From: Methanoregulaceae archaeon
Lineage (GTDB): Archaea; Halobacteriota; Methanomicrobia; Methanomicrobiales; Methanospirillaceae
Assembly: GCA_018432765.1 (NCBI GenBank)
Contig: JAHDSI010000031.1
Location: 1-53,378, forward strand
Direction: 5' to 3'
Length of the DNA stretch: 53,378 nt
The position numbers were made by a program, and so were the translations under genes. Shown piece by piece: positions 24,258 through 34,491 of the stretch. The notes under the pieces were generated by a model. The model did not search any database. It worked only from the letters and a program-made list of their open reading frames with translations, and was not told where the DNA came from. Within the stretch, counting starts at the first letter, position 1. Each line of letters starts with the position of its first letter.

Positions 24258-26075
24258 ATGACAGGGGATCTTGGACCTGGCAGGAAGCGGGAAGCGTTCA
24301 TGCTTTTCGAGGGAGGGAGTTACGAGAGATCATACGAGATTTGCAGGGATATCACTGCCACCGATGATGATCCCTCGATAGTGATCCTATCAGCGATGAA
24401 CCTCTTCCACATGGGCAGGCTGGACGAAGCCGAAGCATATTTTCAGGACCTCGTCTGCCGGATGCCGGAATCCTCCTACATTCACAGTTATCTTGGAAAG
24501 GTACTGGAGATGAAGGGGGAGGAGCAGGCCATCGCCCACTATGGCAGGGCAATCATACTTGACCCAAAAAACCAGGAAGCTCTCCGCAGTTATGCAGCAT
24601 ATCTCCTCTCCTCCGGCGATCCTAGATCTTCCGTCACGGTTTTACGAACACTGTTTGACCTGTCCGGAAAGGAAGAGGATTTCCGGACTCTCATCCAGGC
24701 ACTCCTGGCTTCGGGTGAGGCTGACGAGGCTCTCGAATACTACAAGGGAAGAAAGGGCAGCACGGTACCCGATACCCTGTATGTCAGGATACTGCTCTCC
24801 TGCGGCGAGATCGATACCGCACTGGATCTTGCCAGGGAGGGGATGGAAAAAACTGGTGATCCGCTGTTTGCCCGGTTGTACCTGTCAGCTCTCTCCAGGA
24901 GAGATCCGGATGCTGCACTCGCCGCCTATCCGCCGGTAATCAAAAAGACCAGTAACGATGACATTGCACAGGACCACATCCGGCTCCTGAAGGAGAAAGC
25001 CCGTTACAATGAGGCAATAGACGCATGTTCAACGATGACCACAGGGAAAAATGAAGACGATACCGCCGGGATTCACCTGATGACCGCGGAACTATACGCC
25101 CTTGCCGGTGACAGGGAAAGGGCCCTCGAAGAGTACCGGCGTTTGATACGATCCCAGATGATCCTCATGAGCGAACCCCAGCTCCTCGGCAGGGCGCTCT
25201 CTTCGTTCAAAACGTTTCTTCTCACGTTTTATCCCCTGAAGACTGCTGCCCCGATATATCTTGAGCTTGTATCCGGGCAGCCGGACGTGATCTGCCTCCT
25301 TGCGGCTGCACGGTTCTATGAAGAACTGGGAGATTTCACTGAGGCCAGGTCATGGTATTATCGCGCATACAGGAGTGATTACCTCGAGGGAGGCTGCGAA
25401 TATGCCCGGTTTCTTGCAAACCAGAAAGACTTTCGTGAATGTGAGAAAGTCATGCTGTATGTCGTGAATAATATCAAAAAGACCCAGGATCTCATACGGA
25501 TCTCCGGCCTTGTTGTCGGCGATTCCCGGTTCTACCGCTTGAAACGGTTGCTGGATCGGTTGATCCAGCGGCTTGAATCACGGATATCCATGCTGAATTC
25601 CCACGGCCTGGAATATCTTGCGCAGTCATTGCTCTTTTCCGCAGCACAGGCGCTCGAGGAGAACGATTTTCCGGGGTGCAAGGAGGCATGCCTCAGGGGA
25701 CTGGACATCATACCACCCCGCCCCCGCGATCTCTCCCCCGCAGATTTTCTTGCACTGCTCGAGGCATGCAAGGAGAGGACGCTGTATGATATCCCCCTCT
25801 TTCATGCCGATGAGCATGAGAGGCCAGGGGATGAAATTCCTGCCGAGACGCTTCACGCACTCCTGGAACTTGATGAGAATGAGAAGAAGATCGTTGATTT
25901 TCTGAAAGCACACGGACGGGCGAACGAGATGGACCTCCGCACCCTGCTTGGGACGCGGAGAGCCGCCGGATATGTCAACAGATTGCTGCAAAAATCGGCT
26001 TTGAAGGGAGTACAGATAATTGAGAAGAAAGGAGTTGGTCAATATGGAGAGATATACGAATATTGCGGGGCATGA
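24258..26075 (+). CDS. TPR-repeat protein with C-terminal winged helix
   Basis: A 605-residue soluble protein made largely of tetratricopeptide-like helical repeats (about residues 5-500). Repeat-like segments include LFHMGRLDEAEAYFQDLV, HYGRAIILDPKNQEALRSYA and AELYALAGDRERALEEYRRL. The last 70 residues look like a winged helix (DENEKKIVDFLKAHGRANEMDLRTLLGTRRAAGYVNRLLQ). No signal peptide. The ATG at 24258 follows GGTGAAGAG; an ATG at 24246 lies inside the glycosyltransferase gene without a ribosome site. It overlaps the BrxD-like ATPase gene by 32 bp, so the two proteins are made together and probably interact. Confidence 0.8.
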   Translation: MTGDLGPGRKREAFMLFEGGSYERSYEICRDITATDDDPSIVILSAMNLFHMGRLDEAEAYFQDLVCRMPESSYIHSYLGKVLEMKGEEQAIAHYGRAIILDPKNQEALRSYAAYLLSSGDPRSSVTVLRTLFDLSGKEEDFRTLIQALLASGEADEALEYYKGRKGSTVPDTLYVRILLSCGEIDTALDLAREGMEKTGDPLFARLYLSALSRRDPDAALAAYPPVIKKTSNDDIAQDHIRLLKEKARYNEAIDACSTMTTGKNEDDTAGIHLMTAELYALAGDRERALEEYRRLIRSQMILMSEPQLLGRALSSFKTFLLTFYPLKTAAPIYLELVSGQPDVICLLAAARFYEELGDFTEARSWYYRAYRSDYLEGGCEYARFLANQKDFRECEKVMLYVVNNIKKTQDLIRISGLVVGDSRFYRLKRLLDRLIQRLESRISMLNSHGLEYLAQSLLFSAAQALEENDFPGCKEACLRGLDIIPPRPRDLSPADFLALLEACKERTLYDIPLFHADEHERPGDEIPAETLHALLELDENEKKIVDFLKAHGRANEMDLRTLLGTRRAAGYVNRLLQKSALKGVQIIEKKGVGQYGEIYEYCGA

Positions 26076-27357
26076 ACAGACAAAAACCCGCGGACTGGAG
26101 AGTATGAATATCATCAACGCTCTCCGGCGGGGGACGGTCCCTGCCAGTGGACTCGAGCGGATCGCAGTCGGCCTTGATGTCGAGGAAGAGACGATCGCAA
26201 CACAACTTGATTTTGTCACGAGGGGTGGAGGCGATATAAAATTTATACGCGGTGAATACGGCAGCGGAAAGACATTCCTGGTGGCACGGGCACTTGAGAT
26301 CGCCCGTTCAAAGAATTTCGTGACCTCACACGTGGTGATATCCCAGACAGCACCGCTCCACAAGCTGAAAGGTATCTACCAGCAGATCTGCGCCACGATG
26401 CGGACCACGGAGGAGGAACATGCCCAGAAGGCGATAATCGACAGCTGGTTGTTTGGTATTGAGGAGAAGATCCTCAAGGTTGCCAGGGAAGACATGGATG
26501 AAGAGACGCTCGAGAAGGCGACGGTAAAAGAGATTGAGACCTCACTTGCCGGTATCAGCGAGATGAACACGTCCCTGGCTGCAGCGCTCCGCACGTATTA
26601 CAGGGCAAACAATGCAGGAGATTTCCAGACTGCACAGGCTGCGATCGGATGGATCTGTGCCGAACCCAATGTCGGGAGAGAGTTCAAGCAAAAAGCAGGC
26701 ATCAGGGGGGATATCGACGAGAGCGTGGCATTGATCTTCTTGAGAGGGCTTATCCGCATCATCGTCGCTGCAGGGTATGCAGGGCTTGCAGTTGCCGTGG
26801 ACGAGGTTGAGACGACCCAGTCGCAGGCCAGGAACCAGCGGGAGAAGGGATACAATGTCCTGCGCCAGGTCGTCGACATTCTCGATCGCGGGGAGATGCC
26901 GCATTGCTATTTCCTGTTTACCGGAACCCCTGCCTTCTTCGAGGGGCCCAGGGGCATCAGGTCTCTCCCCTCGCTTTTTGACAGGATCAACGTGATACAG
27001 GCTGACGATTTCCGGAATCCGCGGCAGCCGCAGATTGTCCTTTCAAAATTCAATTCCCGGAAACTGGAGCAGGTCGCCCTCAAGGTGATGGACATCTACT
27101 CGGAGGCATACACGGAGGTTGACCGGAGCAGGGTCACCCACAGGTTCATCCGGGCGATGATACAGAAGGTGACGGGGAAATTCGGTGGACGAATCGACGT
27201 TATTCCCAGGATTTTTTTGAAGGAATTTGTGGATGTACTCGATAAGTGCGAGCTGTACGAAGATTATGATCCATGGGAGAGCTACTCGTTTGATGCCGAT
27301 CATATCCGGGATGAGTTAAAAGAGGAGGAAGAAGCGGTCATGGTCGTGGAGTTCTGA
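26044..27357 (+). CDS. BREX BrxD-like P-loop ATPase (DUF2791)
   Basis: A 437-residue AAA-like ATPase of the DUF2791/BrxD group. Walker A is GEYGSGKT at 70-77, flanked by FIRG and FLVARALEIARS. Walker B is AVDEVE with D253-E254. Sensor-like FTGTPAFFE and a C-terminal RVTHRFIRAM helical region follow. In BREX phage defence BrxD works with a methylase, PglZ and helicase, none of which is here. The start at 26044 follows AAGGAG; a TTG at 26020 is not needed. It overlaps the TPR-winged-helix gene. A stand-alone chromosomal role (regulation, DNA maintenance or a reduced defence module) is possible; function unknown. Confidence 0.82.
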   Translation: MERYTNIAGHEQTKTRGLESMNIINALRRGTVPASGLERIAVGLDVEEETIATQLDFVTRGGGDIKFIRGEYGSGKTFLVARALEIARSKNFVTSHVVISQTAPLHKLKGIYQQICATMRTTEEEHAQKAIIDSWLFGIEEKILKVAREDMDEETLEKATVKEIETSLAGISEMNTSLAAALRTYYRANNAGDFQTAQAAIGWICAEPNVGREFKQKAGIRGDIDESVALIFLRGLIRIIVAAGYAGLAVAVDEVETTQSQARNQREKGYNVLRQVVDILDRGEMPHCYFLFTGTPAFFEGPRGIRSLPSLFDRINVIQADDFRNPRQPQIVLSKFNSRKLEQVALKVMDIYSEAYTEVDRSRVTHRFIRAMIQKVTGKFGGRIDVIPRIFLKEFVDVLDKCELYEDYDPWESYSFDADHIRDELKEEEEAVMVVEF

Positions 27358-29243: not shown

Positions 29244-29298
29244 GCTAATGAGCTTTTACGTTGACAGGAGAGAAAAAGATATTTTGAGGATCGGGAAA

Positions 29299-29345
29299 CA
29301 GTTGGTATATTCAGTTGGTAATGCAATTGATTTAATTTTCAATTG
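29299..29345. promoter_or_regulatory. tupA promoter with direct repeats and an inverted repeat
   Basis: Two elements precede the TupA gene. CAGTTGGTA occurs twice in the same direction (29299-29307 and 29312-29320, 13 bp apart). CAATTGA (29324-29330) and TCAATTG (29339-29345) form a perfect inverted repeat around TTTAATTT, which may itself be the TATA box. A repressor bound to the inverted repeat would block the promoter. The direct repeats resemble elements before the MoSto and TupB genes. Confidence 0.5.
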
Positions 29346-29399
29346 AAGATAAAAGGAAATTTTGATTACAGATGCCGTGAATGGGTATGTGTGGTACTG

Positions 29400-30374
29400 A
29401 TGAACAAAAATTCCCAGTCTATCCTTATTCTGGTCTTTGCTGCTATAATTGTAGGAGGAGTTCTCTTTGCAGGTTGTACAACGACACCTGAAACAGGCAC
29501 TCCGACAGCTCAGCCCACGACTTCGGTCGGTCCGAAAGAGAAGTTACTGCTTGCAACGACCACCAGCCTGTATGATACCGGGCTCCTGGATCACTTAAAG
29601 CCGATGTTTGAAGATAAATACAATGTTGAACTCCTGATCACCTCGCAGGGGACGGGAAAGGCGATAGAGATTGCCAGTCGCGGTGACGCCGACGTCCTGG
29701 CTGTCCATTCTCCAGCCCAGGAGCAGGTGTTCATGGACGCAGGGCATGGATTAAACAGACGATGTTTTGCCTATAATTATTTCATCATCGTCGGACCGGA
29801 TGATGACCCGGCAGGCATCAGGGGAATGGATCCGGAAGCTGCATTCCAGAAACTCTACGACATGGGCATGGCTGCGACTCCGGGCGTCCAGTTTGCATCC
29901 AGGGGTGACAATTCCGGAACACATTCCAAGGAGAAAGCCATCTGGGCAGCTGCCGGATACGATTATGCGACAGATATTCAGAAATCAGGCGACTGGTACA
30001 TCGAGGCAGGGAGGGGGATGGGCGAGACTCTGCAGCTCTCCAACGAGAAACAGGCATACACTCTCTCAGACGAAGGTACCTACCTGGCATACAAGGGCGA
30101 CCTCGACATTGTCCCCCTGATAGACCAGGGCGACATCCTGCTGAATGTGTACAGTGTGATAGCCGTGTATAACGAGGCATTCTCATCTGACGAGATCACC
30201 ATGGCGAACAACTTCGTCGACTTCCTCACCTCGCCGGAGATCCAGGACGAGATCGGGAGCTTCGGCGTAGATACGTACGGGAAGAACCTCTTCTCACCGA
30301 TGAGCGGTGATTGTGAGCAGTTCGACTGTGACTGCACGAGCCCGGCGACAGAGACCACTCCGGCGGTCGCCTGA
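29400..30374 (+). CDS. tupA: tungstate/molybdate ABC transporter substrate-binding lipoprotein (TupA type)
   Basis: Extracellular binding protein of the COG2998 TupA family that captures tungstate, with molybdate possible. From the ATG at 29400 it is 324 residues: a hydrophobic leader ending in the lipobox VLFAGC (C26), then a Thr/Pro-rich linker. The binding domain opens with LATTTSLYDTGLLDHLKPMFE, with TSQGTGKAIE and GDADVLAVHSPAQEQVFMD next, and SRGDNSGTHSKE later, the usual oxyanion-contacting segments. The C-terminal tail is Cys/Thr-rich. The matching permease and ATPase are 3.4 kb away (tupBC), separated by divergent genes. A T-rich run after the stop (about 30391-30402) probably terminates it. 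Confidence 0.9.
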   Translation: MNKNSQSILILVFAAIIVGGVLFAGCTTTPETGTPTAQPTTSVGPKEKLLLATTTSLYDTGLLDHLKPMFEDKYNVELLITSQGTGKAIEIASRGDADVLAVHSPAQEQVFMDAGHGLNRRCFAYNYFIIVGPDDDPAGIRGMDPEAAFQKLYDMGMAATPGVQFASRGDNSGTHSKEKAIWAAAGYDYATDIQKSGDWYIEAGRGMGETLQLSNEKQAYTLSDEGTYLAYKGDLDIVPLIDQGDILLNVYSVIAVYNEAFSSDEITMANNFVDFLTSPEIQDEIGSFGVDTYGKNLFSPMSGDCEQFDCDCTSPATETTPAVA

Positions 30375-30897: not shown

Positions 30898-32043
30898 TCA
30901 ATCCGGGTGGAAGGCCGATTGCTTTTTTTCGATATACAAAAGGAGATAGGCGAGTGCCATACCAATAAAAAATGCTACCGTCATCGAGAATACGAGCGAG
31001 AGTATTCCGATGGTGATGGTCACCGCGATTGATTCTGTTTTCCAGGCATGCTTCGCAAGCTCGAGCGCAACAAAGACAAGCAGGGCTCCATACACCCCGA
31101 CTGATATCAGGCTGACCATAGACGGTCCCGCAAAGAAAAGAGCCAGGATCACAAATATTCCCCCGGCGATGATATTCGCACCTCCTGTCCGTGCCCCGAA
31201 CCGGTACATCCCTGCCATTCCACCTGCACCGTGACACATTGGCATCCCCCCGAAAGGCACCGATACCAGGTTCATCAGGCCGATTGTGCGTGACAGGCGG
31301 GCAGGCATGAGCTTCACTGACATGAGATCGCGGGACAGGAGCGAGGTTGCCAGGATGGCGTTGGTCAGGGTGAGAAGGGCCTGCGGGATGACGAGCACTG
31401 AAAGAGCCGGGATAAAATCATCGGTTTTTGGGAGAACCAGCGCTGGAGGTGACAGAAAGACGAGCTGGGGCACCCCGTGAACGAGGATTCCCGCTCCCAG
31501 GGCAAGGAAAATCAGCACCAGGGAGGAAAGGTCAGGGATTTTTCGCCAGCGGGAAAAGAGGAAGATCCCGACGATTATCGCAACACCGAATACAAAATAG
31601 ATCGGATCCTCGAGCATGAAGCCTCCCGAGGTTTTGAGGAGAAGGAGGGCAAGCCCAAGCTGGATTCCCCGTATCACACTGTCCGGGATCCACTTCTCGA
31701 GCAGGTTCATCCAGTTGCCCGTTCCAAGCACCAGAAAGATCACGCCGAGCAGGATCCCCGCCGCCGCAATCTCGCCCGGTCCGATCGCTTCGGCGATTGC
31801 GATCACCGCGATCACCTTCATGGGTTCTACTGGAACCGGAACGCGATAGAGAAGACCGCTGATGACAAACCAGATGCCGAAAAATAAGAAGATATATCCG
31901 ATATCCAGCCCGGCTACCAGGGCGACTGCCAGAACCAGCGGGAGGATGGTTCCAAAATCCCCCATGCTGCCGGCCAGCTCGGAGAGATCGAACCGGATTT
32001 TTGGAATATTCTCATCCTCTGAACCGTTCACGATCTGATTCAA
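30898..32043 (-). CDS. MOT1-type molybdate transporter
   Basis: A 381-residue membrane protein with about eleven hydrophobic segments. Signature regions are ELAGSMGDFGTILPLVLA near 21-38, the VPVPVEPMKVIAVIAIAEA loop, and PMCHGAGGMAGMYRFGARTGG near 270-290. The last is the hallmark that separates MOT1 molybdate permeases (putative sulfate/molybdate family) from SulP proteins. MOT1 proteins take up molybdate with high affinity in algae and plants; prokaryotic members are mostly annotated as putative sulfate/molybdate transporters. An AAGGATTG site precedes the ATG. The gene lies 25 bp downstream of the MoSto-like gene, forming a storage-uptake operon. Confidence 0.88.
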   Translation of the reverse strand: MNQIVNGSEDENIPKIRFDLSELAGSMGDFGTILPLVLAVALVAGLDIGYIFLFFGIWFVISGLLYRVPVPVEPMKVIAVIAIAEAIGPGEIAAAGILLGVIFLVLGTGNWMNLLEKWIPDSVIRGIQLGLALLLLKTSGGFMLEDPIYFVFGVAIIVGIFLFSRWRKIPDLSSLVLIFLALGAGILVHGVPQLVFLSPPALVLPKTDDFIPALSVLVIPQALLTLTNAILATSLLSRDLMSVKLMPARLSRTIGLMNLVSVPFGGMPMCHGAGGMAGMYRFGARTGGANIIAGGIFVILALFFAGPSMVSLISVGVYGALLVFVALELAKHAWKTESIAVTITIGILSLVFSMTVAFFIGMALAYLLLYIEKKQSAFHPD

Positions 32044-32068: not shown

Positions 32069-32881
32069 TCAGTGTGCATGAATGGTGGTCCCGATATCCT
32101 CCCCTTCGAGGACCCGCCGGATATTCCCCGGTTTATGGCCATTTACTATCCTGACCGATTTGAGGTTCTTTGCATAACGGAGTAATTCCACGACTTTCGG
32201 CTCGAGGACCATGTCATGCATCTCCATATCGAGAAGCTCGGATGCGGTGATATCGGGGATCAGCTCTGCTTCAGGATGCCTGAACGGATTTTTCGTGAAG
32301 AGGCCATCCACGTTCTTTACCAGCACGAGATTCCTGGCCCCAAGAACCTCTGCGGCAAGGAATGCTCCGGTATCAGTCCTGTTGGGGGGTATCGAGCCGA
32401 CTTCAGCCGGTTGTTCATACAGGCCGTATGGAGGGGTTCCATGGGTGACAGGGAGGACTCCAAGTCTCAAAAGCATGGGAAGCTCCAGCAGATCGGCAGT
32501 ATGTATCCTCATTCCACCATATGGAGAGAGGAGGATGGACATCATGATGGCGTTCTGTTCGCTGATCTTACCCGCCAGTTCGGCAAGCACACCGGTGGGC
32601 ATCCCAAGGTTCAACCCTATATCAAGGATGTGTCTCACCCTCACACCCCCTCCGGTCACCACGAGGATCTTGTATTCCTTTGAGAGCTCTCCGATCTCCT
32701 GCACCAATGGCAGGACCACATCCTTTCCGTAATCGATGATGCCGTGACCTCCGAGCTTCACCACGTTCAGATCAGGCATGAGCTTCAGCTGGGGGACATG
32801 TTCATATGCACGAAGAAGCCCGATTCTTGCCAGTGACTCTCCTTTCAGCTCACTTTCCATCTCAAACCGGTTCCGTTTCAT
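32069..32881 (-). CDS. molybdenum storage protein (MoSto) homologue
   Basis: An amino-acid-kinase-fold protein that aligns throughout with the MoSto subunits of Azotobacter, closest in feel to MosB. MoSto uses ATP to build and hold polyoxomolybdate or tungstate clusters in a hexameric cage. Landmarks are VVKLGG, LVVTGGGVRVRHILDIGLNLGMPTG, SEQNAIMM, the TPPYGLYEQPAEVGSIPPNRTDTGAFLAAE region matching the cluster- and nucleotide-contacting part, VLVKNVDGLFTKNP, and a final IVNGHKPGNIRRVLEGEDIGT. Residues 1-30 are less conserved. The ATG at 32881 is 17-31 bp after a TATA-like box; an ATG at 32893 is also possible. Only one subunit type is encoded here. Confidence 0.85.
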   Translation of the reverse strand: MKRNRFEMESELKGESLARIGLLRAYEHVPQLKLMPDLNVVKLGGHGIIDYGKDVVLPLVQEIGELSKEYKILVVTGGGVRVRHILDIGLNLGMPTGVLAELAGKISEQNAIMMSILLSPYGGMRIHTADLLELPMLLRLGVLPVTHGTPPYGLYEQPAEVGSIPPNRTDTGAFLAAEVLGARNLVLVKNVDGLFTKNPFRHPEAELIPDITASELLDMEMHDMVLEPKVVELLRYAKNLKSVRIVNGHKPGNIRRVLEGEDIGTTIHAH

Positions 32882-32897
32882 CTGCGTATACATAGAT

Positions 32898-32985
32898 TTA
32901 TATTTATTAAAAGCTAACAGAATTTATTGATATAACAACTGATATAACAGTTGTGAGATAAGGCTTATAACTGTTCAGGAGTTAT
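32898..32985. promoter_or_regulatory. MoSto/small-protein divergent operator region
   Basis: Contains a TATA-like run on the minus strand (32898-32912). It also has two direct copies of TGATATAACA 12 bp apart (32928-32937, 32940-32949); read on the other strand these are TGTTATATCA. A perfect inverted repeat ACAACTG/CAGTTGT (32935-32941, 32948-32954) overlaps them. A second inverted repeat ATAACT/AGTTAT lies at 32967-32972 and 32980-32985. This dense set of repeats is consistent with regulator binding. Confidence 0.5.
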
Positions 32986-33012: not shown

Positions 33013-33219
33013 ATGGTAAAGATATACGTAAGAGAGAGATTGAAAGTCCGGGAGGGCGCAAAACAGCCGATGTTCCGGATTGTTGCGGTAACGGGAGGCC
33101 AGGTCCAGATCGAGCTCACTCATTTCAGGAAGTTCGAGATCGAGCAGATAGCAAAGGACATCGGGGCTGAAGTGGTATACCTGGAAGAGATCCCAGACGA
33201 GGAGAAGAAGAAACATTAA
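33013..33219 (+). CDS. conserved-looking small protein of unknown function
   Basis: 68 residues, MVKIYVRERLKVREGAKQP then FRIVAVTGGQVQIE and FEIEQIAKDIGAEVVYLEE, ending with a Glu/Lys tail. The alternation of strand, strand, helix, strand suggests a small alpha-beta fold. I do not know a named family with certainty, but similar proteins occur in methanogens. The ATG at 33013 is preceded by GGTG; TTG and GTG codons just before are alternatives. It is divergent from the MoSto gene and shares its repeat-rich promoter, which links it to Mo/W control or use. Confidence 0.65.
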   Translation: MVKIYVRERLKVREGAKQPMFRIVAVTGGQVQIELTHFRKFEIEQIAKDIGAEVVYLEEIPDEEKKKH

Positions 33220-33301: not shown

Positions 33302-33649
33302 ATGCCCGCTTTAAACATTGATCTCATCTTCGACGCTGCAATCCGGATTCACCTCCTGATCGATGGAGCGATCACTCTCAACATCTCCGGGGAGGACATA
33401 CGGATCAAGTTTCCCACGACACGCGCTCTCGCAGATTTTTTGGGAGTTCCCCATTACTATGTCCTCCCGTACTTTGCGATGATGGAAGAGAATCAGCTGG
33501 TTACCAGGGCAGAAAGAATTGGGATCTTTACAACAACGGCAGGGACGAAAAAATATCTGGACCTTCTCCTGGAAACGTATCACGACGAGGGAATCAGGGT
33601 TCTTGGGGCCGATATATTCAGGGAGATACAGAAGCGGGCTTCCGGATAG
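33302..33649 (+). CDS. winged-helix protein, candidate Mo/W-responsive regulator
   Basis: 115 residues. Residues 1-35 form a beta-rich start (IRIHLLIDGAITLNISGEDIRIKFP). The middle looks like a winged helix: TTRALADFLGVPHYYVLPYFAMMEENQLVTRAERIGIFTTTAGTKKYLDLLLE. No known Mo-binding MOP domain is present, and I cannot name a family. The gene lies in the Mo/W island between the MoSto promoter and tupB. Its position and DNA-binding look make it the best local candidate for a regulator of the repeated motif. Function is inferred, not shown. Confidence 0.6.
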   Translation: MPALNIDLIFDAAIRIHLLIDGAITLNISGEDIRIKFPTTRALADFLGVPHYYVLPYFAMMEENQLVTRAERIGIFTTTAGTKKYLDLLLETYHDEGIRVLGADIFREIQKRASG

Positions 33650-33658
33650 TGTGTACAC

Positions 33659-33684
33659 CACTTGTTATATCACCAGGTTAACCG
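33659..33684. promoter_or_regulatory. repeat element upstream of tupB
   Basis: TTGTTATATCA (33662-33672) is an exact match to the element in the MoSto promoter read on its minus strand, followed about 12 bp later by a degenerate GTTAACCGA. It lies about 130 bp before the tupB start, ahead of an A/T-rich run that could hold the TATA box. Confidence 0.45.
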
Positions 33685-33804: not shown

Positions 33805-34491
33805 ATGAATGATATAATTGAAGGATTCACCCAGGCATTCCAGCTCATCGTTACCCTCAACCCTGAAGTCATGGGAATTACCATACGCTCGCTCTTCATC
33901 TCACTCTCTGCGACGTTTCTTGCTTCAATTATCGCAATACCTCTGGGAGGTTTGATTCATTTCAGGGAGTTTGGAGGCAAGAAAGGACTCATTACGATTA
34001 TCCAGGCTCTTTATGCACTGCCTACCGTGCTGGCAGGCCTCTTCGTCTTCCTTCTTATTTCACGTTCCGGCCCGTTTGGCTTCCTCGGGTTGATGTTCAC
34101 GCCCACAGGCATGATATTCGGCCAGATGGTGCTTATCATCCCCCTGATGATCGGGATGACCCTGATCGCCCTCTCCGGCGTGAGAAAGAACATCCAGGAT
34201 ACGATTGTCTCGCTTGGAGCGGACGAATTCCAAAGCATCCTCACAATAATCAAGGAGGCACGGTTTGCAATACTTGGCGGAGTCATTCTCGGTTTTGGAC
34301 GCGCCATATCCGAGGTCGGAGCGGCCATGATTATCGGCGGAAACATCAGGGGATATACCCGAATCCTCACCACGGCAATTGCACTCGAGACCTCGCAGGG
34401 GAACCTTCCTCTCTCTATTGCCCTGGGACTCATCCTGCTCTTCATCGCCCTGATTGTAACCACGATTCTCTTTCTCGTGCAGGAGCGCTGA
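33805..34491 (+). CDS. tupB: tungstate/molybdate ABC transporter permease (TupB type)
   Basis: A 228-residue permease with about five to six transmembrane segments. It resembles the TupB family: TIRSLFISLSATFLASIIAIPLG, then IIQALYALPTVLAGLFVF. The cytoplasmic EAA-type loop includes LGADEFQSILTIIKEARFAILGGVILGFGRAISEVGAAMIIGGNI, which docks on the ATPase. It is separated from tupC by only four bases, and the matching binding protein TupA is upstream in the island. Confidence 0.9.
   Translation: MNDIIEGFTQAFQLIVTLNPEVMGITIRSLFISLSATFLASIIAIPLGGLIHFREFGGKKGLITIIQALYALPTVLAGLFVFLLISRSGPFGFLGLMFTPTGMIFGQMVLIIPLMIGMTLIALSGVRKNIQDTIVSLGADEFQSILTIIKEARFAILGGVILGFGRAISEVGAAMIIGGNIRGYTRILTTAIALETSQGNLPLSIALGLILLFIALIVTTILFLVQER

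Follow-up and report, generated by a model that had tools for sequence, protein, structure and literature searches.

The window analyzed here, a stretch of 53,378 nucleotides from a Methanoregulaceae archaeon, carries on its minus strand a gene (32069 to 32881) whose product resembles both subunits of the Azotobacter vinelandii molybdenum storage protein MoSto, namely, MosA (alpha) and MosB (beta). The reading frame is open to 32893 (274 amino acids), and the ATG at 32881, which the initial annotation had also taken as the start, is the one conserved among relatives and yields a protein of 270 amino acids. Twenty-five bp downstream on the same strand lies a gene for a MOT1-type molybdate permease (30898 to 32043; PF16983, E = 3e-50, in two stretches), the neighbor that the initial annotation had named. 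This pair is flanked by plus-strand genes for a TupA-like oxyanion-binding protein (29343 to 30374; start codon uncertain) and, on the other side, for a TupB-like permease (33805 to 34491) and a TupC/WtpC-like ATPase with a TOBE domain (PF03459; 34496 to 35572). The Tup transporter reported earlier is in place, but all three of its components score below the NCBIfam equivalog cutoffs (TupA, 180 bits against 400 for NF041772; TupB, 157 against 320 for NF041773, with a score above the cutoff for NF038017; TupC, 293 against 440 for NF040840), and the TupA and TupB genes are therefore called Tup-like.

Divergently from the MoSto-like gene runs a gene for a 68-residue protein, here termed orf70 (33013 to 33219, plus strand), with a conserved RxR...G...P...H.RK..E pattern. 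The promoter shared by the two genes contains an operator-like palindrome, TATAACAACTGATATA, which a second copy shifted by 12 bp overlaps (32931 to 32958, no strand assigned; first copy, 32931 to 32946). A 115-residue protein with a winged-helix-like pattern is encoded at 33302 to 33649 (plus strand). Farther away, a 445-residue open reading frame for a large ATP-binding protein (26020 to 27357, plus strand) has relatives with 68 to 80% identity in several syntenic loci. The genome contains mcrA, cut by a contig end, which identifies the source as a methanogen.

When PDB sequences were searched with phmmer, the MoSto-like protein matched MosB (2ogx_B) with an E value of 4.2e-59 over residues 9 to 273 and MosA (2ogx_A) with an E value of 1.8e-44 over residues 26 to 272, so the end-to-end alignment with MosA/MosB claimed in the initial annotation holds over nearly the full length; the best UMP kinase match had an E value of 6.7e-10. 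Given that the archaeal protein is 40% identical to MosB and 35% identical to MosA and that MosA and MosB are 42% identical, it is about equally distant from each of them as they are from one another. The motifs quoted previously, the TPPYxL...GSIPPxRTDTGAF region and the NGHKPGN tail, are present at residues 153 to 178 (TPPYGLYEQPAEVGSIPPNRTDTGAF) and 251 to 257, respectively; at the corresponding places, MosB reads MPPYKLW...GVIPPYRTDAGCF and NGLVPGN. The UMP kinase PyrH shares the amino-acid-kinase fold, the ATP-binding glycines, and the first active-site lysine, whereas it lacks both the ~40-residue N-terminal arm and the PPY...IPPxRxDxG insert, and it scores far lower in every comparison. 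The archaeal protein retains this insert whole.

None of the NCBIfam models was passed by the MoSto-like protein, which reached 66.7 bits against a cutoff of 158 for the archaeal UMP kinase model (TIGR02076) and 44.2 bits against a cutoff of 120 for the isopentenyl phosphate kinase model (NF040647). UMP kinase, isopentenyl phosphate kinase, and MfnE identities were ruled out by the curated cutoffs together with the phylogenetic tree. The genome also encodes a separate UMP kinase, with 27% identity to the MoSto-like protein. Annotation conceals the MosA/MosB family: MosB itself is labeled "uridine kinase" in eight plasmid records.

An AlphaFold2 monomer model, for which 39 sequences of the family were used (mean pLDDT, 81.7; pTM, 0.82; residues 1 to 22 unreliable), superimposed on both MoSto chains with a Z score of ~34 and a root mean square deviation of 1.5 to 2.1 over 236 to 247 residues (VIA-align), compared to a Z score of ~25 for UMP kinases. 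The N-terminal arm that precedes the kinase core was modeled at a pLDDT of <50, although its sequence is well conserved (R9, G18, E19, and R23). In a maximum-likelihood tree built quickly from 78 rows, three UMP kinases included, four separate groups were recovered: MosA (support, 100), MosB (97), the archaeal proteins (80), and UMP kinases (100). The archaeal proteins thus form a third MoSto clade beside MosA and MosB, with moderate support, and the UMP kinases stand apart from them, a placement in keeping with the MoSto homology originally proposed. The great length of the UMP kinase branch leaves the root of the tree unsure, and given this and the moderate support for the archaeal group, we make no claim as to whether one subunit or two is ancestral.

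We compared active-site and cage residues in an alignment of 73 archaeal, 80 MosA, and 79 MosB rows. The GG, TGxGxRxRH, and RxD motifs and the PPY...IPP segment are common to all three groups. The active-site lysines of MosB, K42 (substituted in PDB entry 6RIS) and K189, correspond to K46 and K193 of the archaeal protein and are conserved in 100% of the archaeal rows; MosA, in contrast, has a glutamate (Glu190) at the second lysine position in all of its rows. Glu159 of the MosA PPYHHHE segment is kept as E160. Other cage residues differ. The position that we take to be the proposed gate of MosB, Met149, is threonine in every archaeal row, and His140 of MosA, 100% conserved in that subunit, is replaced by leucine in 89% of the archaeal rows. 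Glu129 and His156 of the alpha subunit have been reported as covalent octamolybdate ligands (PMC4504029); in the archaeal rows, the former is replaced by histidine (79%, a column placement that hinges on a one-residue gap and was itself a gap in a smaller alignment) and the latter by glycine (95%). MosB likewise lacks these ligands.

These residue comparisons describe a subunit that is beta-like in catalysis and neither alpha-like nor beta-like in its cluster-facing residues. The cage residues, on which the initial annotation had proposed that its reading could be checked, gave a mixed answer: the beta-type lysines are kept, but the alpha-type ligands and the methionine gate are not. With these residues absent, the protein may form clusters unlike those of MoSto, or its storage as such may be different; since MosB also lacks the alpha ligands, however, their loss weakens the idea of identical clusters more than it weakens the idea of a store. 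By family definition, the archaeal protein belongs to a new clade of MosA/MosB proteins, but if MoSto is defined by its two subunits and the alpha ligands, the protein falls outside that definition, since we looked for both and neither is present.

A search of the window's genome assembly (86% complete) for a second MoSto-like gene, as the initial annotation had suggested, returned the UMP kinase as the next match, leaving a single gene. Strong homologues (53 to 96% identity, usually in single copy) occur in 132 of 199 sampled genomes of the window's order, a count from which six weaker matches near 1e-6, all other kinases, were excluded. Across the phylum, 67 of 392 genomes carry a homologue, including members of four families outside the order, again nearly all with one copy. 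The single subunit type originally described is therefore the rule among carriers. Methanogenesis does not require the gene, given that about one-third of the order is without it. Truncated or stop-containing copies (G113:C1:953988-954362 and G057:C50:567-1358) suggest recent loss.

The only two-gene case is a tandem pair in one genus (g18 of family f4), whose copies form two paralogue groups in the tree, keep the catalytic residues in both, and arose by a duplication separate from that of MosA and MosB. A two-subunit store may have evolved a second time here, independently. Tandem duplications were seen at loci L170, L171, L172, and L173 (also L041, L050, and L051), where each copy has its own 68-residue gene. 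In bacteria, mosB was followed directly by mosA in 80 of 80 named proteobacterial loci, a sample biased toward MosB-like sequences because it comprises the best 80 of 506 matches in a MosB-led scan. No bacterial single-gene form was seen in 398 genomes of the Azotobacter phylum, in which only Azotobacter itself matched.

The association with Mo/W uptake genes proposed in the initial annotation is conserved across the order and beyond. A relative (≥40% identity) of TupA, TupB, TupC, or MOT1 lies near the MoSto-like gene in 36 of 39 relatives' loci (TupB in 28, TupC in 29, and MOT1 in 27). MOT1 is a same-strand neighbor within 150 bp downstream in only 9 of the 39, and thus the two-gene arrangement in the window is local and the transporter island general. 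Further neighborhoods contain WtpA, WtpC, ModA, and MobB above curated cutoffs and a ModE-like domain below its cutoff. Since Tup, MOT1, Wtp, and Mod genes are all found among the neighbors, the metal may be Mo, W, or both. TupABC is regarded as tungstate specific, and its presence has been used to predict W storage (PMC11980592); by that rule, the frequency of Tup genes would tilt the odds toward W. The MOT1, Wtp, and Mod neighbors count against such a preference, since they point to Mo just as strongly as Tup points to W.

Several transporter arrangements were observed along the way. MOT1-type permeases such as that at 30898 to 32043 are frequent in these archaea; a 2018 survey tabulates MOT1 for eukaryotes only (PMC6147048). 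At locus L181 (2664 to 4778 and 11671 to 13857), a single 704-residue substrate-binding chain joins WtpA-type and ModA-type domains, and a second open reading frame of similar length opens with the same sequence as this fusion. At locus L162, the MoSto-like gene has Mod-type transporter genes on one side and the mcr operon on the other, and a MobB/molybdopterin synthase fusion adjoins it.

The closest companion of the MoSto-like gene is orf70. Among the 199 genomes of the order, 131 have both genes, 1 has the MoSto-like gene alone, 2 have orf70 alone (in assemblies that are 62% and 84% complete), and 65 have neither (Fisher value, 6e-49, which overstates independence because the species are related). 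Losses of the two genes coincide in several families. Of 39 loci, 32 have them divergently adjacent; in some genomes the two lie kilobases apart, with both retained. The orf70 product had no Pfam match and no match among PDB sequences, and its predicted fold (pLDDT, 78) had no convincing structural match (best Foldseek E value, 0.13; best VIA-align Z score, 4.0). Profiles of orf70 and of the 115-residue protein found no match in 80 bacterial mosAB loci, most of them with ~6 kb of flanking sequence.

The palindrome also accompanies orf70. With one mismatch or fewer, the pattern TATANCARYTGNTATA was found in the genome only in the promoter shared by the MoSto-like gene and orf70. With two mismatches allowed, it matched 62 times in the loci of 40 relatives, compared to 14 times for the reversed pattern; 48 of the 62 matches lie upstream of orf70 or the MoSto-like gene, a count that is not independent because the pattern was derived from these same promoters, and the 5 upstream of tupB are independent but few, with 2 more upstream of tupA. 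In the window, weaker copies precede tupB (33654 to 33669, plus strand; two mismatches) and tupA (29294 to 29309, plus strand; three mismatches), and the window-wide total of 5 copies, against 1.9 expected, was reached in 4 of 100 shuffles. Where orf70 is distant from the MoSto-like gene, the palindrome remains with orf70 (L177, L179, L180, L181, and L184). A palindrome with 12-bp periodicity, of the TATACCARYTGGTATA type, is conserved in orf70 promoters across several methanogen families. A candidate for the regulator that binds it is the 115-residue winged-helix-like protein, which is encoded near the MoSto-like gene in 31 of 39 relatives; a relative of this protein matched GntR with an E value of 0.024, below the cutoff. 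The co-occurrence of orf70 and the conserved palindrome in a usually common divergent promoter are the new observations of this work.

Our preferred reading, which we consider rather likely, is that a homomeric MoSto-family protein spends ATP to transfer molybdate and/or tungstate from the cytoplasm into a closed cage, thereby buffering the supply to the pterin-dependent enzymes with which methane is made from CO2 and formate. Computation shows the family assignment, the predicted fold, the beta-type active site, the presence of one gene only, the conserved Tup/Wtp/Mod/MOT1 neighborhood, and the lack of a general nifD link. Beyond these, the protein would assemble as a hexamer of six identical subunits, every one of them catalytic, and would be loaded through a molybdate/tungstate-kinase-like reaction such as a 2019 PNAS paper reportedly proposed for MosB pumping. 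Its main cargo may be tungstate, given how frequently genes like the W-specific TupABC are neighbors. Candidate enzymes to be served are the formylmethanofuran and formate dehydrogenases, and six molybdopterin-family oxidoreductase matches in the window's genome are possible clients. The orf70 product may act as a partner or regulator, and a common operator could coordinate the MoSto-like protein with the Tup genes. Bacterial MoSto stores W too, and its deletion lowers Mo accumulation (PMC6448029). The homomeric Mo/W store for methanogenesis enzymes envisaged in the initial annotation thus retains its MoSto-family membership, its single gene, and its association with Mo/W uptake, albeit without the alpha cage ligands. 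A bolder version, which is possible but which we hold only tentatively, would have an ATP-driven homomeric tungstate cage of six catalytic subunits that is controlled or unloaded by orf70 and a dedicated operator, serves methanogenesis and not nitrogen fixation, and in one genus is splitting into two subunits independently of MosA/MosB.

It is unlikely, though worth serious attention, that the protein is instead a MoSto-derived ATPase for single oxyanions (a chaperone, a sensor, or an activating molybdate/tungstate kinase), perhaps working with orf70, and does not store metal in bulk. An intact beta-type active site combined with missing alpha-type cluster ligands would fit such an enzyme, as would the near-perfect pairing with orf70, which is absent from the flanks of the bacterial mosAB loci that were read. 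However, the whole MoSto-specific insert that UMP kinase lacks has been retained, MosB lines half of the bacterial cage without the alpha ligands, and in MoSto itself some clusters are kept in place largely by van der Waals contacts (PMC4504029). It appears improbable that the protein forms a hetero-oligomer whose cage is completed by another, so far unrecognized subunit such as orf70: the 131/1/2/65 co-occurrence and the duplication of orf70 along with the MoSto-like gene speak for it, but orf70 does not resemble MosA, and its adjacency is divergent rather than operonic and is lost in some genomes.

We give very little credence to a true Azotobacter-like molybdenum store for nitrogenase. Although nifD is present in 19 carriers, it is absent from 113 of 132, the MoSto-like gene is missing from 15 of 34 genomes with nifD, and nifD was not found in the window's assembly (86% complete); nitrogenase as a general client is ruled out by these counts. 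A role as an amino-acid-kinase-fold enzyme that phosphorylates nucleotides or small molecules, with no part in metal handling, is similarly far-fetched, since the common superfamily (PF00696) and the weak UMP kinase match are opposed by the TIGR02076 score, the UMP kinase already present in the genome, the separation of UMP kinases at 100 in the tree, and the Mo/W gene neighborhood.

Compared to MosB, the archaeal protein has no separate MosA partner, and its gene sits amid those for transporters and a 68-residue protein. Its likely role, that of a cytoplasmic store beside Tup-type uptake, recalls the TOBE-domain tungstate/molybdate stores Tub and Mop, but those are unrelated 70-residue proteins that bind single oxyanions without ATP. 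MoSto, an alpha3-beta3 hexamer with a cage that holds about 100 Mo or W atoms, is the model case of polyoxometalate formation by a protein and, to our knowledge, has been described only from nitrogen-fixing bacteria. No paper on MoSto in methanogens was found in the literature searched, and a 2019 study regarded MoSto as having no known homologues in databases (PMC6448029). Since many methanogens carry a one-gene relative amid W/Mo uptake genes and orf70, metal-storing cages are probably not confined to nitrogen fixation. A one-subunit clade in which the catalytic site is kept and the alpha ligands are not would be a simpler version of MoSto, one that allows pumping to be told apart from cluster templating, and orf70 becomes a concrete new candidate for the control or release of metal. 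Hydrogenotrophic methanogens depend on W or Mo in their formylmethanofuran and formate dehydrogenases, and the MoSto-like clade suggests a means by which they may buffer scarce tungsten.
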